From assembly GCF_033001325.1 (NCBI RefSeq), contig NZ_CP133111.1, forward strand, positions 2,790,001 to 2,854,000: a stretch of 64,000 nucleotides of DNA, in the 5' to 3' direction. Position numbers and translations under genes: made by a program. Origin of the DNA: Rhodopseudomonas sp. BAL398. Its GTDB lineage: Bacteria > Pseudomonadota > Alphaproteobacteria > Rhizobiales > Xanthobacteraceae. The notes under the pieces are model-generated. The model saw only the letters and a list, made by a program, of their open reading frames with translations. It was not told the DNA's origin and did not search any database. Shown one piece after another: positions 29,292-54,391 of the stretch; position 1 is the stretch's first letter, and each line of letters begins with the position of its first letter.

Positions 29292-29415
29292 CTTGAGCTG
29301 GGCGAACCGGCATTTGCCAAGCTTGGGCTAGTTCAGCCTCCCAGTATTTTGCAGGGTTCCTGCCTTCCGGATTTGCTCCCGGCGAGCACCACGTGATCGA
29401 TCGGACCGACCTTTG

Positions 29416-33517: not shown

Positions 33518-33549
33518 ATCTGCAGCAGCGTCAGATCTGCAGCAGCGTC
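33516..33549. repeat. 17-bp perfect tandem duplication at the 3' end of the ABC-like gene
   Basis: AGATCTGCAGCAGCGTC occurs twice back to back (33516-33532 and 33533-33549). The stop codon of the minus-strand ABC-like gene (complement of 33531-33533) straddles the junction, so the duplication re-used the same end. Confidence 0.85.
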
Positions 33550-34247: not shown

Positions 34248-35431
34248 TGACTAACTTGCAGATCCAGATTCCCGTGCATCATCACCTTGTCATTCAATGA
34301 ATGAAAGGTGCTGACCCGGCTCGTTTCAAAAACATTACCAGAAACCAAGCCCTTGCCTACCCGATCGAGCCCGAAAACTCCATAGCTATGAGTTGGCCCA
34401 TATCCGGAATAGGCCCCTATTGTATTACTCCGGATCGCAACGACATCGCATTTCTCGATATAGATACCCGAGGCCTCAGGATTGAGACGGGCATTCCCGG
34501 CGATCGACGAGCCGTCGATCGAAATGTGGCTGCCGCCATTGATGATCATACCATGTTCGCCATTGTTGTAGATCCGCGCGCCGTGAAACGCGATGTCGTG
34601 GATCGACCGATCCGGATCGGTCACCAGGATGCCGGCCCCCCGATTCGAACTCGACCAATCGCCGGTCGACTGAACCCTGCGCACCATTCCGGAGGGCGCT
34701 GAGTCGATCTGGAATCCGCTGCCGGTGCAATTGTCGGCCGCGTTCTGCGCAAGAAAGACGTGCTCAAGCCAACGACCGGCGGTCGCGACCAGGTGGATGC
34801 CAATTCCGCAATGATAGGCGCCGCACGAATTGATCCAGATGCCCTGGGAATTTGCAATTCGGAAGCCGGCATCGCATGGCATCGACGCGCCGGGGCACTG
34901 CACGAAGACCCGGGTCAGGTACTGATCGTTGTGGATCCGGTCACCATGTACCAGCACGCCGACGCCCTCCCCAGCCCGGGGATCAATGATTTCCAGATCG
35001 GTCAGGTAGACGAAACTCGAATCCAGCACCTCAACGCCGCAGTTCATGTTGGCGACCAGGCATCGCCACATCTGCACGTCATAGGCGCCGTTGAACTGCA
35101 CACCCGCGCCCGACACCGGCCCCTGCCGGGTATTGACCGTCAAGTCGGAGATTGAAATCCGGGAGACCCGCGCTTGAGAATTGCCCACCACCATTGCGCA
35201 ACCCATGTCGTTGTCGACCATCAGACACGTCACCTCGCGGCCGGCACCGACGATTGAGACATTGTTGCGCTGGATCTGCAGCGGCTCTTCGAGCCGATAG
35301 TGACCACGATCGAGGAAAATGGTGCCGCCCTCGGCCGGCATTTCGCGAATCGCGCGATTCAACAAGGCACCGCATTCGGTGTAACCATCTGCAATTATAT
35401 TGTATTTTCCGATATCGAATTGGCCGGCCAT
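34244..35431 (-). CDS. Right-handed parallel beta-helix protein (pectate-lyase-like fold)
   Basis: A 395-residue protein with repeated short turns (VSRISISDLTVN, VEVLDSSFVYLTDLEI, ISIDGSSIAGNARL, VVAIRSNTIG) typical of a single-stranded beta helix. The N-terminus has GGTIFLDRGHYRL, seen in pectate lyase-3/tailspike-like proteins. There is no signal peptide, so it may stay in the cytoplasm or leave by another route. A role as a glycan lyase, epimerase or scaffold is possible; no catalytic site can be assigned. It lies in an operon with the CapK-like gene upstream and the ATPase-dead ABC gene downstream. Confidence 0.75.
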   Translation of the reverse strand: MAGQFDIGKYNIIADGYTECGALLNRAIREMPAEGGTIFLDRGHYRLEEPLQIQRNNVSIVGAGREVTCLMVDNDMGCAMVVGNSQARVSRISISDLTVNTRQGPVSGAGVQFNGAYDVQMWRCLVANMNCGVEVLDSSFVYLTDLEIIDPRAGEGVGVLVHGDRIHNDQYLTRVFVQCPGASMPCDAGFRIANSQGIWINSCGAYHCGIGIHLVATAGRWLEHVFLAQNAADNCTGSGFQIDSAPSGMVRRVQSTGDWSSSNRGAGILVTDPDRSIHDIAFHGARIYNNGEHGMIINGGSHISIDGSSIAGNARLNPEASGIYIEKCDVVAIRSNTIGAYSGYGPTHSYGVFGLDRVGKGLVSGNVFETSRVSTFHSLNDKVMMHGNLDLQVSQ

Positions 35432-36896: not shown

Positions 36897-39800
36897 CTAT
36901 CGGACGATTTTGTCAATGAGCCCGAACTTCTCGAACATCTGCCGCGGCGACAGTTCGTCGACCACCACCCGATCGTTCAAGTAGGCCCGCGAATAGACGT
37001 CGAACAGGTCCGGAAGCTGCTCTTGGAACCTCGGGATATGCTTGCAACGCTCTAACAGCCTTGCCATCGAAAACATAGGAGCGAGGTCGGCGTCGGCCCC
37101 GAAATAGACGTGTCGTGCCCAAGTCGGGGTGTCGGCGCTGTGGCTGTTGCGGTACGGCGCGACCCGCTCCGCCGAAACGCCTTGGCTTTCGGCAAGGTCG
37201 AACAGGTCCGGCATGCGTTCCAGATGCCAGATCAATGCCCAGCGCAACCAGGACACGTTCATATTGACGATCACATATGGATCGCCAATCCAATAGCCCG
37301 GCCGGTTGATCATGTGCCTGAGCACGTAATCGGAGGTCGGGATGCACGACAGCAAGCTGGAGAACGGCGGAGCGGAGGTGTCCTGGGTATAGGCCGCGAC
37401 CGCGTGGTCTTTGCGGAATACGCAGGCATAGATCGCGGTGAACAGGTTCTCGTTCAAGCCCGCAAACGAACGGATCTCGTTGGAAAAATGGCTTGGCGTC
37501 GACGGCGAAATCGGGATGGATTTCACCACGATCTCGTCGATGTTCGACAGCTGCTCCGGCTTGTCGAAATGCGTGTAGGAATAGTTCAGATAGATCAGTT
37601 CGGAGCCCGGGTGCGAATTGATCACATCCATGATCCGCGACACCACGCCGGACCGGACCAAATCGTCGTCGCCGAGAATCCAGACATAGTCGCCACGCGC
37701 GAGCTTCGCCGTCACCGCAAGATTACCGAGCATGCCGACATTCTCGGCGTTGCGGTGAAATCTGAAGTTCGGATTTTCCAGATATGGCTCGACGATCTGC
37801 GGGGTGTGGTCAGCCGAGGTATTGTCGACGACGAGGATCTCGACGCTGTCCGGAAACGGGCTGGCGCTGGCCAACAGCAGCGGCAGGCTGTGCCGCAGCC
37901 ATTCGGCGCGATTGTAAGTCGATATGCAGACCGACAACCTGATCGGGTTGGTCGAAAGCGCGACCGCTTGGGGGCGTAGCGCCGGTAGATGGCGCTCGAA
38001 GGCATTCGGAAATGTCGGCGTGCGATCGTGCAGAATCCACGTCATCTGACGCGCGTAGTCTTCCCATGTCGGCAGAACGCGCTCGACCGCCTTCTTCGCA
38101 AGCAGCCAACGAGCCTCATTGTCTTCCGCAAGCCAGGCGATTTTCTCGCCGAGCAGATCGCCGTCGTGCGGGTCGATCAGCACACAACCTCCGCCGTCGG
38201 CGATTTCGGCCACGGCACCGTTGTTGCTGCAAATACAAGGTCTGCCATGCCACAGGCTTTCGACGACCGGCAATCCGAACCCTTCCAGCTGCGAGGGAAA
38301 GACGGTGAAATCGCAGGCCATATAGTGTTCGGACAATTCAAGATCGCCGGGAAGGTCAACGATGGTGATGTTCTTCTCCGCGGCGACTTCCTTGACCAGA
38401 TCGCGGGAGTAATCCTGGTAATCCTTCATCGAACCGACCAGCTTCAGCTGAAGGTCGATCGGCGAGTTTTTCGCCGCGAGAATCTTTTGCGCGCGACGAA
38501 AGCCATGAATGGCGGGAAGGTGGTTCTTGCGCGGCTCGAAGGTGCCGACCATCAAGACAACGATCCGGGGGCCGGCATTGCGGTTGATCGTTGTGTTGCG
38601 CTGAAGTGGCCTCATCTCCGCGGCCAGCGGCAGTGGAACGATGCGTGACTTAATCGTCGTCAGCCGCGGCAGCCGCGAGCAATAATAGGCCCACAGGTCC
38701 TCGCCCATCGTCCGGGAAATCGGCAGGATGAGGTCGGCTTCCTTCATCACCTCGAAGTAGTAATGGTATCCCTGCTGCGCGGGGAGCGGATACAAATCGG
38801 TTAGGGTGACGGGGATCAGGTCATAGAAGATGACCGCGATCTTCATCTTGAGCGCTCGGGCGGCGAGGATGACCTGCATCAGGTTGGGATCGGGAAGCAC
38901 CAACTCGGGAATGATCAGCCATGAATCCTCGAGATCCCTGGGGAGCGGGTCGCCGTAGCGCGGGACCGGCGGGCCGTGCCATCGGCTGAAATGCTCGGCC
39001 TCGGCGGGTTCGATGCCAACGAAGCCCTGCCGGGTCCGATCCCATTTGACGAAATCGAGATCGACCCGCAAACGTTCCAGCGCAGCGGCAAGCTGGCGCG
39101 CCACCCGTTGAACGCCGGAATTGCCGTGATAGCTGACGGTGGAATTGACCCAATAGTAAGCGTGGGAGATGCCGGGCGACGTGGACAACATTCCAAGAAA
39201 GTCCCGCGCATAGTCGGCCCAGCCCGGAAGGCTCCGCGCGCGCGCATCGCGGCGTAAGCCGTCGCGCAGGTCGGAATCCGCCGCCAGCTGTTCCAGCGTT
39301 GCGGACAGAACCGCTTCGTCGGTGGTATCGATCACGACCGCGCCGCCACCCTCGGCGACCTCGTTCATCGAGCCGAAATTTGCGCAGAGACACGGCACGC
39401 CGAGCCAAAGGCTTTCGGCGATTGGCAGACCATACCCCTCCTCGACCGAGGGAAACACCGTGAACAGGGCCTCCTCATAGAGGGCATGGAGATCCGACTC
39501 CGGAACGAAGTTGGCAATTTCCACACCGGCGATTTCGCCGCAGAGCGCATCGACCTCGGCGCGCACCAGCGGATGTACATTGCCGACGATCTTTAACCGC
39601 AACGGCAGTTCCGGCCGACGTTCCCTGACTTTGCCGAATGCCCTGATCAGGGCGGACTGGTTCTTGCGTGGTTCGACAGTCCCGACCGAAAGAATTAGGT
39701 CAGCGCCCTGTTTCTCGGGAAAGGCGGAACGCCCGATGCTCGAAAGTTCATAGGGCAGCTTCAGAGCACCAATTAAAGGCGCGCGACCGGACAATTCGGG

Positions 39801-40394
39801 CGCGGAATTCCTGTAGAAATGATCAAGGTCCTTGGCGACGCTCGTGCTGATGGGGATCAGCAAATCGGCAAAGAACAAATGCTGAAGATATGCGGAGTGA
39901 GTTTCCTTGATATCGGCAAATTCCGGCCGCTTGATCGGTATCAGGTCATAGATCACTGCGGCGGTGCGCAGCCCAAATCGTCGCGCATACATTAGGACCG
40001 GCAGCGTCGGCGGCTTGTCCTGAAAAGTCAGGTGGGTGACTTCCGGAATGATCAACCAGTTGCCGGCGAGATCGGCGGCATGGGGCGACAGCTGCAGCGG
40101 CACATTCGGTGCAGTCGGCTCTCGCAATTCCGGGCCGTGATACTTGGCAAGATGAGCTTGACGCTCCACATCCAGTTCGATCAGGGCCCCGTCTTCGCCC
40201 GACCAGCCGACCAGAACGACCTCGACCGGAAGCTTGCGCAGAGCGCTAGCCAGCCCTCGCACGACCCGCTGCACTCCCGAGTTTGCCTCACTGAGTGACG
40301 TGTGATCGGCAAAAACAAAGATTTTCTGAGGCATAGTGTGAACACGATTCGCTAACGAGGGAGATGAGGATCGAACTGAAGCCGACAGGGTCAT
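36897..40394 (-). CDS. Three-domain glycosyltransferase (GT4-GT4-GT2)
   Basis: An 1165-residue protein. Domain 1 (about 22-405) and domain 2 (about 410-790) are both GT4-type and related to each other: each has NSGVQRV near its start, then SVGTVEPRKN or MVGTFEPRKN, and EGYGLPIAESLWLG or EGFGLPVVESLWHG. Domain 3 (about 817-1165) is GT2-type, with SVCISTYNRAEWLRHSL and the metal-binding region GDYVWILGDDDLVRSG. Such multidomain enzymes can build repeat units or polymerise O antigens alone. The ATG at 40394 is used; MPQKIFVF at 40334 is an alternative. No membrane segment is seen. Confidence 0.9.
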   Translation of the reverse strand: MTLSASVRSSSPSLANRVHTMPQKIFVFADHTSLSEANSGVQRVVRGLASALRKLPVEVVLVGWSGEDGALIELDVERQAHLAKYHGPELREPTAPNVPLQLSPHAADLAGNWLIIPEVTHLTFQDKPPTLPVLMYARRFGLRTAAVIYDLIPIKRPEFADIKETHSAYLQHLFFADLLIPISTSVAKDLDHFYRNSAPELSGRAPLIGALKLPYELSSIGRSAFPEKQGADLILSVGTVEPRKNQSALIRAFGKVRERRPELPLRLKIVGNVHPLVRAEVDALCGEIAGVEIANFVPESDLHALYEEALFTVFPSVEEGYGLPIAESLWLGVPCLCANFGSMNEVAEGGGAVVIDTTDEAVLSATLEQLAADSDLRDGLRRDARARSLPGWADYARDFLGMLSTSPGISHAYYWVNSTVSYHGNSGVQRVARQLAAALERLRVDLDFVKWDRTRQGFVGIEPAEAEHFSRWHGPPVPRYGDPLPRDLEDSWLIIPELVLPDPNLMQVILAARALKMKIAVIFYDLIPVTLTDLYPLPAQQGYHYYFEVMKEADLILPISRTMGEDLWAYYCSRLPRLTTIKSRIVPLPLAAEMRPLQRNTTINRNAGPRIVVLMVGTFEPRKNHLPAIHGFRRAQKILAAKNSPIDLQLKLVGSMKDYQDYSRDLVKEVAAEKNITIVDLPGDLELSEHYMACDFTVFPSQLEGFGLPVVESLWHGRPCICSNNGAVAEIADGGGCVLIDPHDGDLLGEKIAWLAEDNEARWLLAKKAVERVLPTWEDYARQMTWILHDRTPTFPNAFERHLPALRPQAVALSTNPIRLSVCISTYNRAEWLRHSLPLLLASASPFPDSVEILVVDNTSADHTPQIVEPYLENPNFRFHRNAENVGMLGNLAVTAKLARGDYVWILGDDDLVRSGVVSRIMDVINSHPGSELIYLNYSYTHFDKPEQLSNIDEIVVKSIPISPSTPSHFSNEIRSFAGLNENLFTAIYACVFRKDHAVAAYTQDTSAPPFSSLLSCIPTSDYVLRHMINRPGYWIGDPYVIVNMNVSWLRWALIWHLERMPDLFDLAESQGVSAERVAPYRNSHSADTPTWARHVYFGADADLAPMFSMARLLERCKHIPRFQEQLPDLFDVYSRAYLNDRVVVDELSPRQMFEKFGLIDKIVR

Positions 40395-40594: not shown

Positions 40595-41572
40595 CTAACT
40601 TGGTTTGGCGGTCTCACGCCAGTAATTAAGCACATTCGACAGCGTCTCTTCCCAGGCCCAACGCGGCTCCCAATCCAGCAACCGCTTCGCAAGATCAGCA
40701 TTGCCGACGATCAGGGGCGTATCGTTCAGCCTGACCCTGGCGGGATCGGAGCGCACCTCGATCCGAACCGAGGATTGCGCCAGCATGAGATCGAGCACGC
40801 TACGAATCGATCGCGCCGTTCCGGACGCAATATTGATCGCGCAGCCCTGCGGCAGCCGGTCGAAGTTCAGCAGCGCCTTGACGTAGGCATCCACGACATC
40901 CCGGACGTCCAGAAAGTCCCGCTTATTCTCGGTATCGCCGACATAAATGATCGGCTCCTGTTCGCCCCGCTCGATCCGCGCGATCTGCGCCGCGAACGCC
41001 GGAACGACGAATTTCTCGCTTTGCCGCGGTCCGGTATGGTTGAAGGGACGCAGCCGGATCGCCCGCAATCGCAGCCGCGCCATCTGACCCAGCATGATAT
41101 CGGCCGCCGCTTTCGCCGCACCGTAGGCATTGGTCGGGTCGAGCATCGCCGCTTCATCTACCGGCAGCCCCTTGTTGAAGGTGGCGCCGTAAACCTCTGC
41201 GCTGCTGCAATGGACGATTCGGCAGTCCTTGCAAAACTCGCTGATCGCGAAGGCGATATTGAACGTTCCGCCGAAATTGACCGCCCAGGCAGCCTTCATA
41301 TCGCGCGAGGCGTCTGTCACCGCAGAAATCGCAGCAAGGTGCAGGACGTGGGTCGGACGCTCGCGCCGGAACAGATCGTTGACGGCCTCGACATCGGTGA
41401 CGTCGAGTGCGATCGATCGCGCGCCGTCGATTTCGACGGCCGACCGTTCCCGATCCGCGACCACAATCTCACCGTTGGACGGCAGCGCCTGCTTCAGCGC
41501 ATCAACAACGTAGTGACCAACGAATCCGCTTCCGCCGGTGATCAGAACTCGGATTCCATCGACTTGTGACAA
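40595..41572 (-). CDS. rmd: GDP-4-keto-6-deoxy-D-mannose reductase
   Basis: Reduces GDP-4-keto-6-deoxy-mannose to GDP-D-rhamnose. The 325-residue SDR has TGGSGFVGHYVVDAL, CSSAEVYGATFNKGLPVDE, YGAAKAAAD (YxxxK) and RPFNHTGPRQSEKFVVPAFA, which is the Rmd signature. It follows gmd by 12 nt on the minus strand. Alternative GDP-fucose or talose synthases are less likely because of the HTGPRQ/FVVPAFA motif. The product donor could be used by the GT4 enzymes of the locus. Confidence 0.93.
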   Translation of the reverse strand: MSQVDGIRVLITGGSGFVGHYVVDALKQALPSNGEIVVADRERSAVEIDGARSIALDVTDVEAVNDLFRRERPTHVLHLAAISAVTDASRDMKAAWAVNFGGTFNIAFAISEFCKDCRIVHCSSAEVYGATFNKGLPVDEAAMLDPTNAYGAAKAAADIMLGQMARLRLRAIRLRPFNHTGPRQSEKFVVPAFAAQIARIERGEQEPIIYVGDTENKRDFLDVRDVVDAYVKALLNFDRLPQGCAINIASGTARSIRSVLDLMLAQSSVRIEVRSDPARVRLNDTPLIVGNADLAKRLLDWEPRWAWEETLSNVLNYWRETAKPS

Positions 41573-41584
41573 CGGCTTCTTCCG

Positions 41585-43836
<2,252 letters not shown>

Positions 43837-44165: not shown

Positions 44166-45731
44166 ATGATCCATTGCCTGTTTAGCCCCACGACGGCGTT
44201 CGAGGGGGAAATCATTTCAAGGGCCATGGGCCGCAGCTTCACCCGCGGCCAGGTTCAGGCCTGGTTTCGCGATTGGCCGGACCTCGCTCCCCGCAGCATC
44301 GTTGTGGCGGTCTCGCCGAGCGACGACAAGGCCGACTACTTTGGCGCCCTGCTGGATCGCGGAGCCAAGCTGATCTTGCTTGGTTCGCTCGGTCCGGAGC
44401 TTGCGAAACTGGCGGGGATTTCTCTCTCTGCGGCCGATGCCGAGATGATCGCCGCCGCGGCCTGTGCCCCTGCCCTTCCCAACGCCGGCAGCGAGAGCCT
44501 TGGTGCGATCCGATACATGGACAAAGGTCTTGGCGCAGCCTCGCCGCTGCGGCAGCGTCGGCTGTGCCGGTTCGATTTCGCCGAGGAGTGGAATAATCTC
44601 GGTTATGGTCGAATTGGGGTCGGGGTCGACCCTTGGTCGATCGCAATGACGGCGCAACCGCTGTCGGCGATCACCGTTGCCGAACTCGACTGCGGCAAAC
44701 CGCTTGCAACTGGCGCGGTTGCAACGCTGCGCGATCTACCGTCCTCGGCGATCCTTTGGCATGCTCGCCCGGTCGGGCCGGTTGATGGCGCGGACTGGCA
44801 GATCATCGAAGCGTTCGTCTCGCATTATCGTCATGCCGATCTGCCGTGCCGTCCCCATCTGCGCGACGTGCCGCATGGCGTCGGTGCCGCCGTCACCATG
44901 CGGCTCGATTGCGACGAGGATATTGCTTCGGCGCGTCCGCTGTTCGACCTGTACCGACAGCAAGGGCTGCCGCTTTCGCTGGCGATCAAGACCGACCAGC
45001 CGGAGCGCCCCGAACACCTCGCTCTGCTGGAGGATCTGCGCCGGGCCGGCGGCTCGATTCTGTCGCATTCGGTCAGCCACGCGCCGCGCTGGGGCGGCAC
45101 GCCCGAAGCCGCGGAAGCCGAGGCCACAGGCTCGAAAGACTGGCTGGAATCCCAGCTCCCCGGTCTTACGGTACGCTACGCAGTATCGCCGTTTCACCAG
45201 AATCCGAGCTATGTGCCCGATGCGCTGGCGCGGGCCGGCTATGACGGCTTCATCGGCGGCATTATTGCCAATGATCCCGAATACCTGATGGCGCGCGGCG
45301 GCGAGGTTCCGCACGGCCCCGTCGGTTTCATCTCGCACAGCCAGGCCTGCATGCTGCACGGCGACTGCATGCTCGATGGCGGCGATCGGCTGCGGATCTA
45401 CAAAGAGGCGTTTCGCATCGCCAAGGCCGGATCGCAGTTCTTCGGGTTTCTCGACCATCCGTTCTCCGAGCGTTACGCCTATGGCTGGCGCAGCGAAGCC
45501 GATCGCCTGGCCGCCCACGCCGAATTCCTCTCCAGCATCGCCGACGAATGCGCCCGGAGCGGCGAGACGTTGCTGTTTGTGAACGAAGAGACCTGTCTCG
45601 ACTTCATGCGCGACAAAGCCGATGCGCAGATCACATTCGACGAAACATCGCGGACTTTCGCCGTCTCCCGACGCCAGGCGGCGAACCTGCCGCTGTCGCT
45701 CGGCTATCGCGGCAGCAATCAGGCGGCATAA
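44166..45731 (+). CDS. Polysaccharide deacetylase-like protein
   Basis: A 521-residue protein. The C-terminal part (about 240-460) is a NodB/polysaccharide deacetylase fold. TMRLDCDED (about 245-252) matches motif 1 (catalytic Asp and metal-binding Asp), and ILSHSVSH (about 298-305) matches the HxxxH metal-binding motif. The first 230 residues have no family I recognise and lack a signal peptide. Its stop directly abuts the wecB start, so the two are coupled. Deacetylation of a HexNAc residue is plausible given WecB, but the pathway is inferred. Confidence 0.82.
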   Translation: MIHCLFSPTTAFEGEIISRAMGRSFTRGQVQAWFRDWPDLAPRSIVVAVSPSDDKADYFGALLDRGAKLILLGSLGPELAKLAGISLSAADAEMIAAAACAPALPNAGSESLGAIRYMDKGLGAASPLRQRRLCRFDFAEEWNNLGYGRIGVGVDPWSIAMTAQPLSAITVAELDCGKPLATGAVATLRDLPSSAILWHARPVGPVDGADWQIIEAFVSHYRHADLPCRPHLRDVPHGVGAAVTMRLDCDEDIASARPLFDLYRQQGLPLSLAIKTDQPERPEHLALLEDLRRAGGSILSHSVSHAPRWGGTPEAAEAEATGSKDWLESQLPGLTVRYAVSPFHQNPSYVPDALARAGYDGFIGGIIANDPEYLMARGGEVPHGPVGFISHSQACMLHGDCMLDGGDRLRIYKEAFRIAKAGSQFFGFLDHPFSERYAYGWRSEADRLAAHAEFLSSIADECARSGETLLFVNEETCLDFMRDKADAQITFDETSRTFAVSRRQAANLPLSLGYRGSNQAA

Positions 45732-46850
45732 ATGTCCAAGAAGATTCTGGTGCTGTTCGGAACGCGTCCGGAATGCATCAAGCTTGCGCCGATCGTCGCC
45801 GAGTTGCGCCGCCGCCCCGAGCAGTTCAGCACCTTCGTCTGCGCATCGGGACAGCACCGTGAAATGCTGGCGCAGACGCTCGCCGCGTTCGATCTCGTGC
45901 CCGACGAGGATCTGGCGGTGATGCGCCACGACCAGGGCCTGGCGGAATTGACGGCGCAGCTGATCACCAAACTGACCCAGACGATCCGCGCGGTGCAGCC
46001 CGACCTGGTTCTCGTGCAGGGAGATACCGCCACGGCCTTCGCCGGCGCGCTGGCGGCGTTCTATCAGCGTATCGCCGTCGGCCACGTCGAGGCCGGGCTG
46101 CGCTCCTATCAGCGTTACAATCCGTTTCCGGAAGAAGGCAATCGCAAGCTGATCGGCGCGCTGGCGGATCTGCACTTCGCGCCGACGCAACGCGCGGTCG
46201 ATGCGTTGCGTCGCGAGGCCATCGATCCGGCAGCAATCCATCTAACCGGTAATACCGTGGTGGATGCCTTGCTGGCGCTCAGGGCACGGCTCGATACCCC
46301 GGCCGGGGCCGGGCTGGTGTCGGCGACGATCCGCAACATTGCTGCCGACGCCGGCAGGATCGTGCTGATCACCTGCCATCGCCGCGAAAGCTTCGGCGAC
46401 GACCTCGCCGCGATCTGCCGCGCCATCCGCCGGATCGCGCTGGCGCATCCGCAGCTGCAATTCGTATTCCCGGTGCATCTCAATCCGAATGTGCGCGCTC
46501 AGGTGATGCCGCTGCTCGGCGATATCGGCAACGTTTCGCTGCTCGACCCGCTCGGTTATGTCGACTTCATCTATCTGTTGTCGCGATCGGTGCTGGCGTT
46601 GTCGGATTCGGGCGGCATCCAGGAAGAAGCGCCGAGTTTCGGCGTGCCGGTTCTGGTGCTGCGCTCGACCACCGAGCGGCAAGAAGGAATCGACGCCGGC
46701 TTCGCCGAACTGGTCGGCGCCGACGAAGAGCTGATCGTCGCCCGCGCCGCGCACCTGTTGCAGGGCGCGACCGCGGGTCTCTCCGGCAAGGCTAACCCCT
46801 ATGGCGACGGCACCGCGAGCCGCCGGATCGTGGATGTGATCGGGGGGTGA
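45732..46850 (+). CDS. wecB: UDP-N-acetylglucosamine 2-epimerase
   Basis: Converts UDP-GlcNAc to UDP-ManNAc. The 372-residue GT-B-like epimerase shows LFGTRPECIKLAPIVAEL, QGDTATAF, VGHVEAGLRSYQRYNPFPEE (UDP and active-site region) and SDSGGIQEEAPSFGVPVLVL. Its ATG follows immediately after the deacetylase TAA. No UDP-ManNAc dehydrogenase (WecC) is present in the window, so UDP-ManNAc may be used as such or oxidised by an enzyme elsewhere. Confidence 0.95.
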   Translation: MSKKILVLFGTRPECIKLAPIVAELRRRPEQFSTFVCASGQHREMLAQTLAAFDLVPDEDLAVMRHDQGLAELTAQLITKLTQTIRAVQPDLVLVQGDTATAFAGALAAFYQRIAVGHVEAGLRSYQRYNPFPEEGNRKLIGALADLHFAPTQRAVDALRREAIDPAAIHLTGNTVVDALLALRARLDTPAGAGLVSATIRNIAADAGRIVLITCHRRESFGDDLAAICRAIRRIALAHPQLQFVFPVHLNPNVRAQVMPLLGDIGNVSLLDPLGYVDFIYLLSRSVLALSDSGGIQEEAPSFGVPVLVLRSTTERQEGIDAGFAELVGADEELIVARAAHLLQGATAGLSGKANPYGDGTASRRIVDVIGG

Positions 46851-47075: not shown

Positions 47076-48563
47076 ATGAAACCAGTCAGCATTTCGTCCA
47101 CCGAAATCTCCCTACGCTCAGGCTGGTTCCCTATGGAACATTCTGAGGGTGGCTCATTTTCATGGATGTCAACTGCGGCAACCGTGGAAATTTCCGGACT
47201 CGACGCCAGCGAAACCATCGTACTGGAATACTCTTATCCCGAAGAAGCGTTTCCGGTTCCGGATCTAGTAATCGGCACACGGCAGTTCCCGCTTTCAGGG
47301 GGGCACAACAGTCTTTTGATTTCTAGTTCCGATCTGATTAAGGAGGAACAGACCATCTCCCTTGAGCTGTCGATCGACCGACTACCGCTGTTTCACGAAG
47401 ATCACCGAGCGCTCGGTCTCAAAGTTCATAAGTTTTATGTGGAACGCGACCCGGTCATCGTTAATTTCAAAAGAACCCAGAACGCCATCAACACCCGTCC
47501 TGAGTTCTGCGATAATAACCCAATCGTCTATATGATCGGCGTCACAGACAGATGTAATCTGCGTTGTGTGATCTGCTTGAAACACCATGATCAGGATGGC
47601 GACAACAACAAGGACCTGATCGATCTCCCTGACGATTCGCTGATGAAGCTATTGCCACTTGCCTATACGGCACAGATGGTTCTGCTGCTCGGATACGGAG
47701 AACCATTGCTCAATAAACGCTTGCCCGAGATTATCGATGACATTTCGGCCAAAGCGTCAAACAGCATCGACCTGATAACGAATGGCTTGCTGCTCTCTCC
47801 CCAGTGGATCGACAAGATATTGAGTCGAAACGTCCGTGTGCTGAGCGTCTCAATGGACGCTGCGACGCCAGCTGGTTACGAGCGAATGCGCGGCGGGGCT
47901 TACGAAAAGGTCATCCGTAACGTTCAGGCTCTGGTCGCCGCTCGGGCAAAGTGCAAGAACGCCAGCCTCGAAATCCGCATGAACATGGCTGTGACGCGCG
48001 CCAACATTTCCGAAGTGCCGTTGCTGGTCGAACTGGCCGCAGACCTCGGCGTCGACACCGTCGAGTTCCGCCACCTCCACGAAAATCCCATCCACGCTTG
48101 GAAAGTCGAGAAGCCCGATTTCATTTTCGACTACAACGACGCCTTGATTGAAAACGACCCGGAAGAATGTCGATTGGCCCTTAACGACGCTATACGGCGC
48201 GCAAAGCGACGCAACATCCGTTATATTCTGGACGCTCCGTTCGTCGGGCTGGTAGATCCGGATTTCGTCATAGCTGAGGATGTGGATGTCGGTGAGTACA
48301 AAGATTGTCCTCACCCATGGCGATGGCTGATGGTGACGGCGGCTGGTGACGCCTACACCTGTTGTTGGGCGCCCCCGTTGGCGAAGCTGTCGGACTACGC
48401 ATCGGCGGGGGAGCTATGGAATGGCGAGGAGTATCAACGGCTCCGCAGAAACATCAAGGCTGGCGTGGTTGATCAGATCTGCGCCGGCGTGACATGCCCG
48501 TTCCAATCGGCCCTTCCCGAGAACACTGACCGCCGGGCAGAAAAACTTGCGCCGTCAATTTAG
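47076..48563 (+). CDS. Radical SAM/SPASM protein with an N-terminal beta-rich domain (paralogue 1)
   Basis: A 495-residue protein. The radical SAM cluster is C160-N-L-R-C164-V-I-C167 (CxxxCxxC), followed by KHHDQDGDNN. The GGEP-like SAM site reads LLGYGEPLL. A SPASM-type C-terminus has DCPHPWRWLMV, TCCWAP, LWNGEEYQRLR and ICAGVTCPF, which should bind a second Fe-S cluster. The first 120 residues are beta-rich and begin SGWFPMEHSEGGSFSW, related to the start of the protein encoded at 49901-51478. The base composition is lower in G+C than the neighbouring genes. It probably modifies a glycan or small peptide; the substrate is unknown. Confidence 0.85.
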   Translation: MKPVSISSTEISLRSGWFPMEHSEGGSFSWMSTAATVEISGLDASETIVLEYSYPEEAFPVPDLVIGTRQFPLSGGHNSLLISSSDLIKEEQTISLELSIDRLPLFHEDHRALGLKVHKFYVERDPVIVNFKRTQNAINTRPEFCDNNPIVYMIGVTDRCNLRCVICLKHHDQDGDNNKDLIDLPDDSLMKLLPLAYTAQMVLLLGYGEPLLNKRLPEIIDDISAKASNSIDLITNGLLLSPQWIDKILSRNVRVLSVSMDAATPAGYERMRGGAYEKVIRNVQALVAARAKCKNASLEIRMNMAVTRANISEVPLLVELAADLGVDTVEFRHLHENPIHAWKVEKPDFIFDYNDALIENDPEECRLALNDAIRRAKRRNIRYILDAPFVGLVDPDFVIAEDVDVGEYKDCPHPWRWLMVTAAGDAYTCCWAPPLAKLSDYASAGELWNGEEYQRLRRNIKAGVVDQICAGVTCPFQSALPENTDRRAEKLAPSI

Positions 48564-48699
48564 GTTATCCCCAGCGGTTATCTAAAAGTTGTTGCTAAAG
48601 TCGAAACCTGATCCGCAATGCCCAACGTCCACAGCATGGCGACTACTGACCAATACCGAAGATGAATGGGTTTGTTAGGTGGGCGGTAGCGGAATCCGA

Positions 48700-49154
48700 T
48701 TAAACGTGCCGCTTTCTGGCCGCTGTCGGATGCTGCTCCTCAGTTGCGTCAACGTGCTCGGACTTTGAGTTCATCGGAGCGTTATTTTGAGAGTCTGACG
48801 GCGACCGTTTACCCGCGGCCGCGGTATCGCGTTTGTTGCGATCGGCGAATTCCTGCTGCGCCATCGTCTCCTTCATCACATATCTGCAGCTGGCGCCAAC
48901 GCAAATCGGATCGATCCGGTTGTCCTTGATGTTCTGCCTCAGGCGTTGCATCGCCCGGCCATTCCAGATCTCAAGCGCGCTCGACGCCTTCAAATTGGCG
49001 ATCGGTTTGGAGGCCATACAGCATGGCTTGACGTCGGCGTTCGCCTCAAACGCCAGCCGATGCCACGGTGCGCGACACGGAGTATTCTGGCAACTTCTCC
49101 GTGAGTTCACCTGAAATCGCGGATCGACGAACAGGTAAAGTCCGAGCCCCGCGG
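48700..49154 (-). pseudogene. Truncated third copy of the radical SAM/SPASM gene (C-terminal fragment)
   Basis: Nearly identical, by eye, to the 3' part of the gene at 49901-51478 from about the SPASM region to the end. It keeps KPCCMASKPIANLKASSALE and ICVGASCRY but has no radical SAM core. A 22-bp deletion at about 49108 (after GTGAGTTC) shifts the frame relative to the intact copy. Homology stops abruptly at about 49154 where IS5-like transposase sequence begins. The short open frame 48700-49110 (136 residues) uses a GTG created by the deletion and is unlikely to be functional. Confidence 0.8.
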
Positions 49155-49739
49155 CCGGCGCGCTTGAATTGATGCGCGTGAGTGTAGCGCCCGACCGTGA
49201 TGGCGGCGCGCTTGGCCAGATCGACCAGCTCTTCGATCACCCGGTGGGTGAGCCGGGCCCCGGTCGGATGAACGATCGCCTTCTCCTGCAGGTGGTGTCG
49301 ACCACCACCCATTCCAGGCCCTTGGTCTGCGGTGCGCCGGTTCGATGTGCCACCGCCAGACTCTCCCGCAGCAGCGCTGTCAATTCCTCCTCGCCCAATC
49401 GTTTGCGCCAGCGGCTCAGCAAGGAGCGGTCGAACGGCAGATCGTGGCGGAACACCACCTCGCCGCAGAAGAACTGGCAATGTCGGTTCTCCACCCAGCG
49501 CGCGCACAAACCTCGTCGGACAGATTGGGCATGTGCTTGAGCATCAACAGCCCGGCGATCAGTCAGGTTCGGCAATGGCGGCTGCCCCGGCCCGGGCCGA
49601 CAGACGGCGCCGAACCGCGTCGCCAAAAACCCCGATCGAGCTCGGCGGTCAGCCGCCCCAGCGCATGCCCCGGATCGATGACCTGCTTCAGCGCCGGCCC
49701 AAACAACTCATCCTGACGATCGTCGCGTGGCTTGCTCAT
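49155..49739 (-). mobile_element. IS5-like transposase remnant, frameshifted and truncated
   Basis: Reverse-strand frames together spell an IS5-family transposase. It starts MSKPRDDRQDELFGPALKQV (from 49739), then CARWVENRH, FCGEVVFRHDLPFDRSLLSR and RWRKRLGEEELTALLRESL, VVDTT (catalytic Asp), and finally KRAAITVGRYTHAHQFKRA in a third frame. At least two frameshifts and an internal deletion are needed to join them, and the C-terminal part with the last DDE residues is missing. The 3' end fuses to the truncated radical SAM copy. Terminal inverted repeats cannot be identified, so the left boundary is uncertain. Confidence 0.8.
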
Positions 49740-49900
49740 CGTCTCCCTCCCGCCAGCAAAACGCCGGCCCGAAGGAATCCCGAAACGCCCAAATGAGAAT
49801 CCCAAAACGCAGGAAAACCGCGCTCAGGACGCCGCTTGCCTGTAGAATTGAATATTTCTCGAATAGAATCTAACTCGGAAAACAGCAACTTCCGAATTGT

Positions 49901-51478
49901 TCACGGACGGCTCTGATACCGCTCCTCGGTTGCGCCAGCGTGCTCGGATTTTGAGTTCATCGGAGCGTTATTTTTAGATTCTGACAGCGCCCGCTTACCC
50001 GCGACCGCGGTATCGCGTTTGTTGCGATCGGCGAGTTCCTGCCGCGCCATCGCCTCCTTCATCACATATCTGCAGCTGGCGCCAACGCAAATCGGATCGA
50101 TCCGGTTGTCCTTGATGTTCTGCCTCAGGCGTTGCATCGCCCGGCCATTCCAGATCTCGAGCGCGCTCGACGCCTTCAAATTGGCGATCGGTTTGGCGGC
50201 CATACAGCATGGCTTGACGTCGGCGTTCGCCTCAAACGCCATCCAATGCCACGGCGCGCGGCACTCGGAATATTCTGGCAACTTCTCCGTGAGTTCGTTT
50301 GCCCTGCCGTACAAGGTCACCTGAAATCGCGGATCGACGAACAGGTAAAGCCCGAGCCCCGCGGCGATCGCGATCGCCTCTTCGATGAAGGGCCGGATCA
50401 GTTCCGGATTGTTCTCGGGAAGGTTGTCGCGATAATCGAATACCTTGCCATTCTTCGCGACACTCCAGTCGAACGCCTCTCCGGAATTGAGATGATACAG
50501 CTCGACGCCATCGACGCCGATCTCGTGCGCGAGGCGCACCAGCTTGGGAGCGTCTGCGACGTTGGCTTTGGTCACCGTCATGTTGAACAGGATGCGAATC
50601 GGATTGGCCGACGTCGCGCGCTGCCGCACCAATTCCTTCATGTTCGCAAGCAGCCTTGCAAAATCACCCCCGCGGATATCCGCGTAGGTCTCGGGGGTGG
50701 CGGCGTCGAATGAAACGCTGATGTGATCGACGTTATGCTTCAGCAGCCGCTCGATGTTCTTCGAACTGAAGGTCAGGCCGTTGGTGTTGAATTCGATCTT
50801 CGCGCCCGGATTTCCTTCCAGCAGCGTGAACCAATCCCAGAATTTTCGAGCCATCAGCGGCTCGCCGGCGCCGCCGTGAATTTGAATCCGCGCCGCCCCC
50901 ATGGCGGCGTCTCTGATTTTCGGGATCAGCTCCGGCGGGAAATCCTCAAGGCCCGCATTGTTGTCGCCCTCCTGACCATGGTGAGCGTAGCAGGTGACGC
51001 AGCGCAGATTGCACTTGTCAGTCACTGCGATGGTCATCTCGCTTGGCGTGTAGTCGGCGACAAGCGGCAATTCGCGCAATCCAACTTCCCGCTTGTGATA
51101 ATTCATCGCATGGTCGGACGGTGCTTCGACACCGAAGACCATCAGCCCGAGGTCGCGCGGGCCGCCCTCCGGCCGGAACGGCCGTGATAGATCGAGGCTG
51201 ATCAGATCCCCCGATCGGGCACCCAATCCAGCAAGATCAATCGTCACCTTCCCGCGACCCAGAACAATGGGAACCGACGAATATCCGGCATCGCTTACCA
51301 CCCGGCAATCGGTCTCACCGAACTGCTCAGGCCTGGCATAGTCAATCAACAAATACCGTCCCGCACCTGGCGGAACTACCAGGCGAGATACCTTTCCCGA
51401 CCACCTCCAAGACAAATCCGAAAGCTTCTCAATGGGATGCCATCCGTCGAGAAAGATATTATCATTCAGGATGTTCAT
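49901..51478 (-). CDS. Radical SAM/SPASM protein with an N-terminal beta-rich domain (paralogue 2)
   Basis: A 525-residue paralogue of the protein encoded at 47076-48563. The cluster cysteines are C156, C160 and C163 (CNLRCVTC) followed by YAHHGQEGDNN. The SAM-binding site reads IHGGAGEPLM. SPASM-type motifs are ECRAPWHWM, KPCCMA, IWNGRAMQRLR and ICVGASCRY. The N-terminal domain (1-115) has DGWHPIEKLSDLSWRW and DYARPEQF, parallel to paralogue 1. The last 50 residues are a charged, repeat-free tail. ATG at 51478 (a TTG at 51490 is less likely). A glycan or sugar-nucleotide substrate is suggested only by position. Confidence 0.87.
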   Translation of the reverse strand: MNILNDNIFLDGWHPIEKLSDLSWRWSGKVSRLVVPPGAGRYLLIDYARPEQFGETDCRVVSDAGYSSVPIVLGRGKVTIDLAGLGARSGDLISLDLSRPFRPEGGPRDLGLMVFGVEAPSDHAMNYHKREVGLRELPLVADYTPSEMTIAVTDKCNLRCVTCYAHHGQEGDNNAGLEDFPPELIPKIRDAAMGAARIQIHGGAGEPLMARKFWDWFTLLEGNPGAKIEFNTNGLTFSSKNIERLLKHNVDHISVSFDAATPETYADIRGGDFARLLANMKELVRQRATSANPIRILFNMTVTKANVADAPKLVRLAHEIGVDGVELYHLNSGEAFDWSVAKNGKVFDYRDNLPENNPELIRPFIEEAIAIAAGLGLYLFVDPRFQVTLYGRANELTEKLPEYSECRAPWHWMAFEANADVKPCCMAAKPIANLKASSALEIWNGRAMQRLRQNIKDNRIDPICVGASCRYVMKEAMARQELADRNKRDTAVAGKRALSESKNNAPMNSKSEHAGATEERYQSRP

Positions 51479-51909
51479 GTCTGCTCGCAATCTTCGCTCG
51501 GGGACTCTTGGTCCTTGCAGCTACTCTCGAAGACCAAAGCCGCGGAGCACGATAGATCAATATGATCATTTATCGCAGAGCGGGATAAATATGCAAGGGT
51601 GTAGCTGACGAACTACGCACCACCGGCTGTGAGTTCCACCGGCTCCAAGGCCTGTTGGCGCCGCCGGCTGGTGGATACCGTGCTACCATCGAGCTCTCAA
51701 CACCGAAGGAACCATCGACCGCCCCGGGGGCACCGTTTTCGGCAGCGAATCGGCGCTCTACGGGAGCCACTGTTGAGAAAAGAGCGGTTCCCTGTTCCCT
51801 CCGTCCGAGGATAATCTTCCCGACGGGAACACGAACAGTGAGTTCCCGGCACAAACTTCTACCCCCGCAGTTCCACGGCAAAGGCCAGCCGAGAAAAGAG
51901 CGTACCACG
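51479..51909. other. Divergent intergenic region between radical SAM and glycosyltransferase genes
   Basis: About 431 nt. It must hold promoters for both directions; an A/T-rich stretch at 51550-51600 is a likely place. Open frames on both strands (for example 51570-51908, minus) show no motif I recognise. Short repeats of CCACCGGCT occur at about 51620-51645. Confidence 0.4.
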
Positions 51910-52947
51910 ATGCGGATATTGTACTATTCAAGTCATGAAGTTCTGGAATATGACGAATTGCGAATGCTGATAGCGGAAGGTCACCGTGTCTTCAGCATCG
52001 GCCACCACTTCGATCCTTTCGCCTTGAGCGGCGACCTCAGGCCGTTGCTGCCGGGCGCTCTTGACCATCAACTATTCAATGAGTTTCACCTGACAGGGTG
52101 TGACTTAGCGCAAAAGAAGATCACCAAGGCTTTCATTCGTCATTTTGACATCGTGGTGATCATGCATGATCCAATCCTGCTGCTTCGAAACCTTGACGCA
52201 TTCGGCGACATTCCGATCGTCATCAGGACGATCGGTCAATCCGACCTCTCGCTTGAGGACACCTACAGGAGGCTTGGAAATCGCATCAAGATCGTACGCT
52301 ATTCCGATCGCGAGACAGCGCTCGCCGGATTCGCCAAGACCGATGCTGTGATCTATTTCGGGAAATATGGCACCGACTTCCTGCCGTGGAATGGCGGAAA
52401 TGCCGGGATCACGTTTCACAATTCCTATGATTTTCGGGATCACAGTACGGTTCCCGCTCTTGAGATGTGGAAGCAGTTCGGCGCCGCGACCGGTTCCGAA
52501 TTGTGGGGTGTCGGCAATGGCCGCGTCGCCGCGTCGCGGGGCAAGGCGGCGACGGACCAGATGCGGACGCTCTTGTCCAAGGCCTCCTGGTATTTCTACA
52601 TCTACACGTTTCCGCCGTCCTACACGCTGAGCCTGATAGAAGCGATGCTCGCCGGCGTGCCGGTAATCGCGCCTTCATTACCTTTGGTCGAGAGCATCTA
52701 TCCCGACACAATGTATGGGTCGCTACGGGCCTGGTCGTCACCCCGATATGAGGTGGAGGAGATCGTCGGCGACGGCGGCCTCTTCTACAATTCGATCGAA
52801 CAAGCCATCGAGATCGCGGGCCTTCTCAGATCCGATCCGGAGTATGGACGCTCACTATCGAATGCAGCCCGGGCCAATGCCCTCGCGCGCTTCGACGCGG
52901 AAACGATCGCGCCGCGTTGGAGCCGATTTCTCAATTCCATTCTTTAA
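51910..52947 (+). CDS. Glycosyltransferase-like protein (GT-B)
   Basis: A 345-residue protein starting MRILYYSSHEVLEYDELRML. The N-terminal half has FDIVVIMHDPILLL, and the C-terminal donor half has SYTLSLIEAMLAGVPVIAPS, typical of GT4 enzymes, followed by a glycine-rich YEVEEIVGDGGLFYN. An insertion with WGVGNGRVAASRGKAATDQM is unusual. The open frame continues upstream to 51655 with no homology, so the ATG at 51910 is used. It lies between the second radical SAM gene (divergent) and a methyltransferase. Confidence 0.78.
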   Translation: MRILYYSSHEVLEYDELRMLIAEGHRVFSIGHHFDPFALSGDLRPLLPGALDHQLFNEFHLTGCDLAQKKITKAFIRHFDIVVIMHDPILLLRNLDAFGDIPIVIRTIGQSDLSLEDTYRRLGNRIKIVRYSDRETALAGFAKTDAVIYFGKYGTDFLPWNGGNAGITFHNSYDFRDHSTVPALEMWKQFGAATGSELWGVGNGRVAASRGKAATDQMRTLLSKASWYFYIYTFPPSYTLSLIEAMLAGVPVIAPSLPLVESIYPDTMYGSLRAWSSPRYEVEEIVGDGGLFYNSIEQAIEIAGLLRSDPEYGRSLSNAARANALARFDAETIAPRWSRFLNSIL

Positions 52948-53284
52948 CTGGGAACGCCCGCAGCGGCGGCCTGACATCAAGGTTTCGGCGCGATGGGCCC
53001 GCTGTGCCTGACACGAGAGGTCGTGGCAGCGCCGACCGCAGCTGATCAGGCGGACCAACACGATCCGAGCGGAACCGCCCGACCGCCCGCCAACGGCGTT
53101 GGCTTCTCTATTCCTCATCGCTCGATGTCAACGCATCAATTGCCGACCGCCATCGCTATCCCCGTCACATCCATTCCCGAAGCTGAATGTGACCGCTGGG
53201 GCGAATAATTATGACGTGACGCTCGCGAACTATAGTATTGGACTGATTTCGGGCGAATGTTTTGAGATTATATTGGAGTGTTCA
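52948..53284. other. Gap between glycosyltransferase and methyltransferase genes
   Basis: About 337 nt. The left part is G+C-rich with no motif; the right part (53205-53284) is A/T-rich (TATAGTATTGGACTG, TTTTGAGATTATATTGGAG) and is the probable promoter region of the methyltransferase gene. No other gene is supported. Confidence 0.4.
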
Positions 53285-54391
53285 ATGCAGAATTTTTTAG
53301 GATTATCGGAATCTGTCGTCCGTTATACGATATGGCCGCTTGTCCCAGAGGCAGCCAAGCGTGCATTACGTCCATCGATTATGCGAATTCGGGGAGACGT
53401 CATCGCAGCGCCACCGCTTACCGATGATCAACTTCAGGATATTACGAATGTAGATCCTGAGGTGGCGCTGATCGCCCAACGCTATCATGATATCATTGGC
53501 GGGGCCGCCAATCGAATAGGAGACGGCGGAACCAATGCGGGCACCCCACTGACGTCTCCTGCAGCCATCGACGCTTTGGTTGGTTACGGCCACCACGCGG
53601 CTGTTCACTCCCATGACGCGATGTTGCGACTGATCCATAGCTTTCATTATCGTTTCCCGGAGACACCGAACGACCCGCATTCTGACGAATACAAGAAATT
53701 CTGGCTCGAACAGTACCGGCAGGTGGCCCAACGGGACTATGCTTTCAGTAATGAATCTCATGATTTCGACGTTCGCTTCGAGACCGACGTATATCCCTAT
53801 AATACGCGGAATCCTCAGGTGATTGCCGCACATATCATGGCCATCGGAGCGATCATTGAATCTATCCCGATGCCGCCGCCGTCGCGGGTTCTTGAAATGG
53901 GAGTTGGGTGGGGAAACGTTGCGTTACAGATCGGCTTGGCCGGCTATGACGTGACTGTGCTCGACATCGAACGCAAATATCTCGAAATCGTCGAGCGACG
54001 TTTCAAGAAAGACGGATTGAAAGTCAGCTGCGTCCTGGGCGAGTTTTTCGAAGCAGAGCGCATCGAAGGGACATTCGATGTTATTCTGTTTTATGAATGC
54101 TTCCACCATTGCCTGGAGCACGCCTCGCTGCTGAAGATGCTGAAGCGTAAGCTTTCGCAAAATGGCGTGATTATCTTCGCAGGAGAAACGATTGACGACA
54201 GTCTGCCGTTCGCATGGGGTCTGAATCCTTCGGGGCAGGGAGTGTGGTCAATCCGTCATCGCGGCTGGATGGAATTGTCATTCACTGAGCGGTATTTCCT
54301 CGATCTCCTCGACCACGCAGGATTTGTCGTGACCAAGAATCGAAATCCGCATAGCGCTCACAGTACGGTTTATACGGCGCGCGTTCGATAG
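53285..54391 (+). CDS. Class I SAM-dependent methyltransferase
   Basis: A 368-residue protein. The SAM-binding motif VLEMGVGWGNVALQIGLAGY is at about 202-221, followed by DVTVLDIE (motif II acidic residue) and LFYECFHHCLEHASLLKML. The N-terminal 195 residues are poorly conserved. The ATG at 53285 has GGAG 6 nt upstream, and the leader is A/T-rich, unlike neighbouring DNA. The substrate is unknown; a sugar or aglycone in the polysaccharide pathway is plausible from context. Confidence 0.82.
   Translation: MQNFLGLSESVVRYTIWPLVPEAAKRALRPSIMRIRGDVIAAPPLTDDQLQDITNVDPEVALIAQRYHDIIGGAANRIGDGGTNAGTPLTSPAAIDALVGYGHHAAVHSHDAMLRLIHSFHYRFPETPNDPHSDEYKKFWLEQYRQVAQRDYAFSNESHDFDVRFETDVYPYNTRNPQVIAAHIMAIGAIIESIPMPPPSRVLEMGVGWGNVALQIGLAGYDVTVLDIERKYLEIVERRFKKDGLKVSCVLGEFFEAERIEGTFDVILFYECFHHCLEHASLLKMLKRKLSQNGVIIFAGETIDDSLPFAWGLNPSGQGVWSIRHRGWMELSFTERYFLDLLDHAGFVVTKNRNPHSAHSTVYTARVR

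Follow-up and report, generated by a model that had tools for sequence, protein, structure and literature searches.

Two genes in a 64,000 nt stretch of the 6.2 Mb genome of Rhodopseudomonas sp. BAL398 (NZ_CP133111.1, positions 2,790,001-2,854,000; here called the window, to which all unprefixed coordinates refer) encode paralogous radical S-adenosylmethionine (SAM) proteins, in which a radical SAM core and a SPASM domain are preceded by an additional N-terminal domain. These proteins, designated rSAM1 (495 aa; 47076-48563, forward strand) and rSAM2 (525 aa counted from the ATG; 49901-51478, reverse strand), are encoded within a polysaccharide locus. We propose that they tailor an exported O-type polysaccharide by radical SAM chemistry, a reading to which we assign a probability of roughly 0.55.

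Domain content and conserved cysteines

The genes are convergent, with both full-length frames open. Both products pass the Pfam cut-offs for the radical SAM family (PF04055; 58.0 bits for rSAM1 and 59.7 bits for rSAM2, relative to a cut-off of 29.5) and the SPASM domain (PF13186; 24.6 and 35.3 bits respectively, relative to 21.5), and they share 35% identity over 469 aligned aa (E 2e-78); they are thus the pair of paralogous radical SAM/SPASM proteins that a preliminary description of the sequence had taken them to be. In rSAM1, a β-sandwich-like domain, as judged from a β-rich prediction and a remote profile match, occupies residues 1-130 (47076-47465, forward strand), followed by the radical SAM core at residues 156-291 (47541-47948; Pfam and cysteine alignment), with its CxxxCxxC motif at positions 160, 164 and 167, and the SPASM domain at residues 411-470 (48306-48485; Pfam). 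The corresponding regions of rSAM2, all on the reverse strand, are residues 1-128 (51095-51478; remote profile match), 152-286 (50621-51025; Pfam), with cysteines at 156, 160 and 163, and 406-464 (50087-50263; Pfam).

Every motif quoted in the preliminary description is present in both proteins. Read directly from rSAM1 and rSAM2 respectively, these are CNLRCVICLKHHDQDGDNN and CNLRCVTCYAHHGQEGDNN, CPHPWRW and CRAPWHW, a CC pair in each, WNGEEYQRLRRNIK and WNGRAMQRLRQNIK, ICAGVTC and ICVGASC, and, near the N terminus, GWFPMEH and GWHPIEK. A search with the back-translated signature HHxQxGDNN found exactly two matches in the window, one in rSAM1 (47583-47609, forward strand) and one in rSAM2 (50957-50983, reverse strand), and none in 100 dinucleotide shuffles. 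Ten of 153 loci contain the signature: seven are copies of the window locus and three are viral contigs, in which none of the three DNA matches falls within a radical SAM frame. None of the best 25 NCBIfam models for each protein (of 62 and 64 matches) attains its cut-off, the highest scores being for TIGR04317 (97 and 96 bits, cut-off 380), with NF033640 at 88 bits (cut-off 170); hence neither protein can be assigned to a named family.

Of the eight cysteines common to rSAM1 and rSAM2, three belong to the radical SAM motif; the other five lie in the SPASM part, where they form the motifs CxxPW, CC and CxxxxC. The latter are residues 411, 429, 430, 469 and 474 of rSAM1 and 406, 424, 425, 464 and 469 of rSAM2, the last of each set lying just beyond the Pfam match; rSAM2 has just one cysteine besides these eight. 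The same layout is kept in three relatives described below: P0006, the split Azospirillum pair P0005/P0004, across which it is distributed, and P0003, which has CxxC at the end. Classically, SPASM domains are defined by seven C-terminal cysteines binding two auxiliary clusters, while in the proteins studied here five C-terminal cysteines are invariant, sufficient for a single auxiliary cluster with one residue over. Should four cysteines bind the auxiliary cluster and three the radical SAM cluster, one of the eight would be spare, and an epimerase could use this residue as a hydrogen donor. There are precedents for such a role: Cys249 of NeoN donates the hydrogen in the conversion of neomycin C, which has four rings, to neomycin B (PMC10991966), and Cys223 of EpeE has been proposed as a hydrogen donor in a report that also mentions a radical SAM enzyme proposed to carry out a C2 epimerisation in avilamycin (PMC8326336).

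Affinities of the N-terminal domain

The additional domain exists, as the preliminary description had suggested, and extends to approximately residue 125; its β-rich character is a prediction of low to modest confidence, as an AlphaFold2 model based on the two sequences was mostly β, with a mean predicted local distance difference test (pLDDT) score of 63 and a predicted template modelling score of 0.59. Searching Pfam with residues 1-125 of both proteins detected no family at E 10, DUF7024 (PF22895) included, with the qualification that the HMMER filters drop most matches above 0.1; nor was any match to DUF7024 found in the genome as a whole at E 0.01. Within the same genome, a profile of the N-terminal domain recovered rSAM1, rSAM2 and one match at E 0.73, and tblastn searches of plasmids with the two domains gave only E values above 1. 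Comparing the model with known structures, VIA-align listed β-sandwiches; carbohydrate-binding modules and BcsB, a subunit of cellulose synthase, were among the highest-ranked, and no family stood out above the other β-sandwiches. The model of the full-length protein was poor (pLDDT 52.7); hence its Foldseek list, headed by BlsE, is merely a hint.

Comparisons of sequence patterns and profiles indicate that the N-terminal domain is probably related to a set of 14 DUF7024-like sandwich domains from 12 proteins. Across loci that total 1.8 Mb and overlap in part, the pattern GW..E...W...R.LG.x[VI], written after the motif had been seen in the window, matched only the sandwich proteins and rSAM1 and rSAM2. 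It also matched one of 29,410 shuffled open reading frames (ORFs), but no shuffle of either N-terminal domain, with 200,000 made of each; a looser version additionally matched one unrelated-looking ORF (L057). Aligning a profile of the two window domains with one of seven sandwiches using hhalign gave a score of 22.0 (E 0.0057), which none of 300 column shuffles reached (best 21.0). With all 14 sandwiches the score rose to 24.3 (E 0.0018), the best of 300 column shuffles being 19.7, and the alignment spanned residues 10-123 of the window domain and columns 31-160 of the sandwich. No solved structure matched the sandwich profile, the one listed having an E value of 0.92.

The sandwich carriers with a named function are glycosyltransferases, sulfotransferases, a methyltransferase and a carbamoyltransferase, and also include another SPASM protein. 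This last, P0004, encoded on plasmid p5 of Azospirillum brasilense, is the SPASM half of a split system and has a C-terminal domain fitting the pattern (weak match to DUF7024 in Pfam, E 0.18); the locus containing it and its partner P0005 is of the lipopolysaccharide (LPS) type, including hldE, rfaD and glycosyltransferases. The radical SAM and SPASM-sandwich parts are two ORFs in different frames (L095:9917-11438), representing either a frameshift or a split gene. Adjoining them is a 1790-residue glycosyltransferase (L095:2742-8114, reverse strand) containing three DUF7024-like sandwiches, two recognised by the pattern and the third by the profile. A search for DUF7024 in 61 genomes identified G012 and G808, the latter below the cut-off (E 4e-4). 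In G012, C-terminal sandwiches are found on a sulfotransferase-like protein (25.3 bits), a methyltransferase (39.4 bits) and a carbamoyltransferase (18.6 bits), relative to the DUF7024 cut-off of 24.4, and these carriers lie in one locus (L113:7072-8391, L114:2586-3710 and L114:3774-6263). In Azospirillum oryzae, the sandwich is found on a sulfotransferase adjoining two GDP-mannose dehydratases; a locus of this species also has three radical SAM genes next to carbamoyltransferase and GNAT genes (L121:5798-12633). No paper naming DUF7024 was found in the literature searched, which leaves out most subscription journals.

The polysaccharide locus

The region at approximately 28-54 kb of the window can be read as a polysaccharide cluster of the ABC-transporter-dependent type. 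The exporter genes, named by context, encode a Wzm-like ABC-2 membrane protein (29413-30231, forward strand) and a Wzt-like ABC ATPase (30250-30984, forward strand), and the cluster also has several glycosyltransferases. On the reverse strand are a second nucleoside diphosphate-sugar dehydratase/epimerase family protein (40595-41572), a GDP-mannose 4,6-dehydratase (41585-42580) and a sugar C-methyltransferase (PF08421/PF08484; 42598-43959), which has relatives in the G1127 and G012 loci. Between these and rSAM1, and on the same strand as it, are genes for a polysaccharide-deacetylase-like protein, a weak match below the Pfam cut-off (44166-45731, forward strand), and a UDP-GlcNAc 2-epimerase family protein (45732-46850, forward strand), which is directly upstream of rSAM1 with a gap of 225 bases. 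The glycosyltransferase and methyltransferase previously remarked upon as neighbours are both present: a glycosyltransferase-like gene, below the Pfam cut-off, at 51655-52947 (forward strand; this is the longest ORF, and the true start is probably further in) and a SAM-dependent methyltransferase at 53099-54391 (forward strand).

Two further features of the locus are a 1165-residue protein composed of two GT4-type domains and one GT2 domain in series (36897-40394), and a weak second ABC ATPase, below the Pfam cut-off, that overlaps a β-helix (NosD-like) protein (33531-35431). Scanning 20 neighbouring proteins revealed no peptidase or sulfatase domains at E 0.01, and no domains associated with ribosomally synthesised and post-translationally modified peptides (RiPPs); no precursor peptide could be recognised by eye, the short ORFs adjoining both genes being overlapping or unremarkable. 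Roles in arsenosugar synthesis or sulfatase maturation were also considered, and were rejected because genes of this kind are absent from the scanned neighbours and none of the NCBIfam models listed attains its cut-off.

The region between the two genes contains more than the preliminary description recorded: the two genes stand, and between them are a third, truncated copy and a transposase remnant, neither of which was mentioned. The third copy (48700-49162, reverse strand; blastn) retains the 3' end only, with internal deletions of 22 and 2 bases. Positions 48726-49025 are 94% identical to 49912-50211 in the rSAM2 gene; the complete blastn alignment (48726-49155) shows 89% identity and 24 gap positions. 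Across 99 comparable codons, the nonsynonymous and synonymous divergences (dN 0.063, dS 0.065) are so similar that no constraint on the remnant is visible. The transposase remnant (DUF772, PF05598; 49237-49626, reverse strand; Pfam) lies between this copy and rSAM2. The simplest account, which we infer from this arrangement, would be that the gene was duplicated in tandem and that sequence was then lost around an insertion element. The third-position GC content of rSAM1 (0.64), the glycosyltransferase-like gene at 51655-52947 (0.66) and the methyltransferase (0.56) is below that of 17 other genes of the locus (0.69-0.86); that of rSAM2 (0.72) is inside this range.

Relatives of the two proteins

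Apart from rSAM1 and rSAM2 themselves, the whole layout was not found in searches, using a profile of the two proteins, of 41 genomes of relatives (E 1e-30; matches in their own genome and two others), 248 genomes of the family (E 1e-40; its own and G1127), 397 of the order (E 1e-27; its own and five others), 385 of the class (E 1e-40; its own only) or 398 of the phylum (E 1e-30; its own and three others). These samples overlap, and the larger runs scored three to five candidates per genome; hence a miss is not proof of absence. A genome of the same genus, G001, lacked a match to this profile at E 1e-30. Among nucleotide records, tblastn with rSAM2 matched eight of 72,556 plasmid records, none over 80% of the query, and one of 50,697 phage records, spanning 34%, while a scan of viral contigs with the same protein identified no relative. 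Searching plasmids with the relatives themselves, P0006 matched five records, P0005 four, and the P0004 sandwich only itself. The loci among the matches listed in a scan of genome contigs, which picked up a generic radical SAM pattern, are largely MoaA-like by the look of their alignment and were set aside.

The closest match elsewhere is P0006 of G1127 (E 8.5e-51 in the 248 family genomes), a 598-residue radical SAM/SPASM protein with the C-terminal stretch GLHELE...RW...RRLGVAI, which may tentatively be read, from its sequence, as the same kind of sandwich. Its locus resembles that of the window in encoding a GDP-mannose dehydratase (52% identity), a C-methyltransferase (48% over 248 aa), Wzt (48.5%) and Wzm (28%). 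The C-methyltransferase of G012 is 70% identical to that of the window over 412 aa, and no match to the two-protein profile was found in G012 at E 1e-30. Another relative, P0003 (L094:9698-11200), is a radical SAM/SPASM protein extended by an additional region at the N terminus; it is encoded on a Methylobacterium oryzae plasmid.

A five-row profile detected seven further genomes among the 385 of the class. The motif pattern was absent from all seven loci and none was listed by the sandwich hidden Markov model (HMM); as this HMM also misses P0006, that absence is weak. In the genus of G1127 the same profile found only G1127, and among 41 relatives of G1127 it found G005, G020, G003 and G016 as well.

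The other related radical SAM/SPASM proteins found in the order share the layout of three and five cysteines by motif and lie in a different cassette, with no sandwich found. They differ from the window proteins in being mostly around 350 aa long, in the context of the first cluster, CNLLCTTCPRTYEELEPP, and in their neighbours, which are TIGR04282-, GT87- and GT2-type genes. This recurrent cassette combines a radical SAM/SPASM gene (CNLLC[TE]TCPRT[YF]E.LEPP) with a GT2-type gene and, usually, a GT87-like membrane protein and a DUF2064/TIGR04282-type gene; it was seen in L104, L105, L106, L107, L108, L010, L011 and L135, with gene names assigned by eye, and is annotated in L097 and L098. In Methylobacterium it additionally contains a molybdopterin oxidoreductase, cytochrome b and an aminotransferase.

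In a tree of 21 radical SAM cores, which omits the proteins of L136, L137, L138, L139, L141 and L145, the four sandwich-labelled proteins lie near each other, requiring two label changes, a number as low as which was obtained in five of 500 shuffles. These four form one side of a branch in 2% of bootstrap trees, only three of 18 branches are supported, and the analysis carried a long-branch warning.

Proposed function

As the sandwich carriers with a named function include builders and decorators of glycans, the most economical reading is that rSAM1 and rSAM2 decorate the polysaccharide of their locus by radical chemistry. The radical SAM core, with its three cluster cysteines, would split SAM to give a 5'-deoxyadenosyl radical, which would abstract hydrogen at a carbon of the sugar; an auxiliary iron-sulfur cluster would sit in the SPASM part, and the N-terminal β-sandwich would dock the enzyme on the glycan or on the machinery that assembles it. 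A glycan substrate, this docking and the type of reaction are what we infer from context, the likeliest net reactions being epimerisation or dehydrogenation of a ring alcohol. For dehydrogenation, BtrN provides a precedent; in an epimerisation, the spare conserved cysteine would return the hydrogen on the other face. The two paralogues might have two different residues or positions as their targets. The radical modification of sugars put forward in the preliminary description is thus supported by the context of the locus and by the likely nature of the additional domain, without being demonstrated, and its alternative of a carrier may also apply to the substrate. Two other loci favour a sugar role: that of the Azospirillum sandwich radical SAM system, which is of the LPS type, and, tentatively, that of P0006, a sugar cluster like the one in the window. 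A more specific version, on which we would place less reliance than on the general proposal and which we regard as doubtful, is that radical chemistry is applied directly to the assembled surface polysaccharide under guidance of the sandwich, altering the configuration or oxidation state of sugars once the chain is complete, the DUF7024-related module being a general docking tag of late decorating enzymes, whether sulfo-, carbamoyl-, methyltransferases or radical SAM proteins.

A number of observations weigh against this interpretation. Many SPASM proteins act on peptides. The hhalign probabilities linking the N-terminal domain to the sandwiches are 6.5 to 15%, from a query of two sequences; a six-seed sandwich HMM scored rSAM1 and rSAM2 no better than shuffles, and the 14-domain HMM gave them 5.0 and -0.7 bits. 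With the model of the domain, Foldseek returned nothing at E 0.001, its best rows being chains of the insecticidal protein Cry11 (E 0.008), followed by a Bacteroides glucan-binding protein, while the best VIA-align score to carbohydrate-binding modules (Z 7.3, root mean square deviation 3.6, 87 aligned residues, from a model of pLDDT 63) falls in the range that VIA-align describes as possibly a mere common arrangement. No function is assigned to five of the 12 sandwich carriers, three of these five being membrane-protein-like by eye. The C-terminal stretch of P0006 was assigned by eye and on 18 columns aligned with the sandwiches (E 0.0028), or 26 columns with the window domains (E 0.039); it departs from the strict pattern, reaches 5.0 bits and is unlisted by the 14-domain HMM at E 1e-3. 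Residues 37-124 of P0003, by contrast, score 12.2 bits with this HMM, above both window proteins, and the P0003 gene adjoins a prolyl oligopeptidase gene rather than glycan genes, which weakens the link between sandwich and glycan; P0003 may have another, diverged sandwich at its N terminus, or else scores of this size mean little. Finally, the CC pair holding the spare cysteine is also present in other SPASM proteins without an assigned function, and hence the role of this residue is a prediction rather than evidence for epimerisation.

The two outcomes that the preliminary description named as counting against its view are divided: no full-length orthologue, characterised or otherwise, was found in the samples, whilst in P0003 there is a relative whose neighbours are unconnected with glycans. 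Its statement that it knew of no characterised enzyme with this layout needs qualifying in that a module of the same kind occurs at the C terminus of another SPASM protein.

The enzymes might instead take a nucleotide sugar or a lipid-linked monosaccharide as substrate, ahead of polymerisation, in the manner of DesII, BtrN and BlsE, the sandwich serving for complex formation only. The locus does encode functions for GDP-linked deoxysugars and a C-methyltransferase, BlsE heads the Foldseek list of the poor full-length model, and a profile search of the PDB placed these sugar enzymes among the radical SAM matches (BlsE 39 bits, BtrN 35 and DesII 21); but the matches are confined to the radical SAM core, the peptide enzyme SkfB scores higher (49.5 bits), and the sandwich-bearing enzymes elsewhere include sulfo-, methyl- and carbamoyltransferases, for which the assembled glycan is often the substrate. 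We consider this explanation unlikely, and judge similarly one in which the proteins modify a peptide or protein, as RiPP-type enzymes or as metalloenzyme or sulfatase maturases, being in a glycan locus by chance or acting on a protein of the glycan pathway. This would accord with the top NCBIfam scores, which are for metalloenzyme maturase models (97 bits), with the high positions of SkfB and 5wgg, which we take to be CteB, in the PDB search, and with the peptidase gene beside P0003, a relative with a sandwich-like score. The NCBIfam scores are, however, far from the cut-offs of 380 and 400, none of the best 25 models being attained, and the surroundings of the two genes revealed no precursor by eye and, in the 20 proteins scanned, no peptidase or sulfatase domain at E 0.01.

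That the genes belong to a stretch of the locus that was recently reshuffled, is decaying and retains little function is very improbable. The reduction of the third copy to its 3' end, with dN close to dS, the transposase remnant between the genes, the third-position GC content of rSAM1, which is below that of all 17 other genes of the locus (rSAM2 is not), and the lack of a match in G001 at E 1e-30 speak for such decay; yet both frames are open, and the eight cysteines have been kept in proteins that are only 35% identical. Tailoring of the exported polysaccharide remains the explanation that we favour.

Comparison with known systems

The sugar configurations of bacterial polysaccharides are usually credited to nucleotide-sugar enzymes, changes after assembly being known from a few systems. 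If the proposal is correct, the chemistry of unactivated C-H bonds would join the ways in which a surface polysaccharide can be altered, and the sandwich module of several O-antigen enzymes would gain a testable role, as well as providing a handle for finding glycan-tailoring enzymes; the interest lies in a module that links radical SAM chemistry to glycan enzymes. Should it prove wrong, the case would still put on record an uncommon arrangement of domains and a set of genes that is triplicated and in part decayed. No paper describing the layout was found in the literature on radical SAM enzymes and glycans, searched by titles and the openings of abstracts, with most subscription journals outside the search.

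Radical SAM genes near genes for a glycosyltransferase, an NAD-dependent epimerase and rfbC occur in the plasmid rfb cluster of Brachyspira hyodysenteriae; the likeness is one of gene neighbourhood only, and in that report their function is presumed (PMC4267127). BtrN and BlsE have the radical SAM core in common with the window proteins by profile (35 and 39 bits), a likeness restricted to the core and matched equally by peptide enzymes. NeoN and AviX12 are radical SAM enzymes for which inversion at a carbon of an already assembled oligosaccharide has been either demonstrated or proposed (PMC10991966, PMC8326336). They belong to antibiotic pathways, and are set beside rSAM1 and rSAM2 by description rather than by sequence. 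The likeness to DUF7024 consists of the shared pattern and an alignment of profiles over the whole domain, and its carriers are, like the proteins described here, encoded in glycan loci; to our knowledge, neither NeoN nor AviX12 has a sandwich module. Whereas the 14 DUF7024-like domains are C-terminal or lie inside a giant glycosyltransferase, that of rSAM1 and rSAM2 is found at the N terminus.

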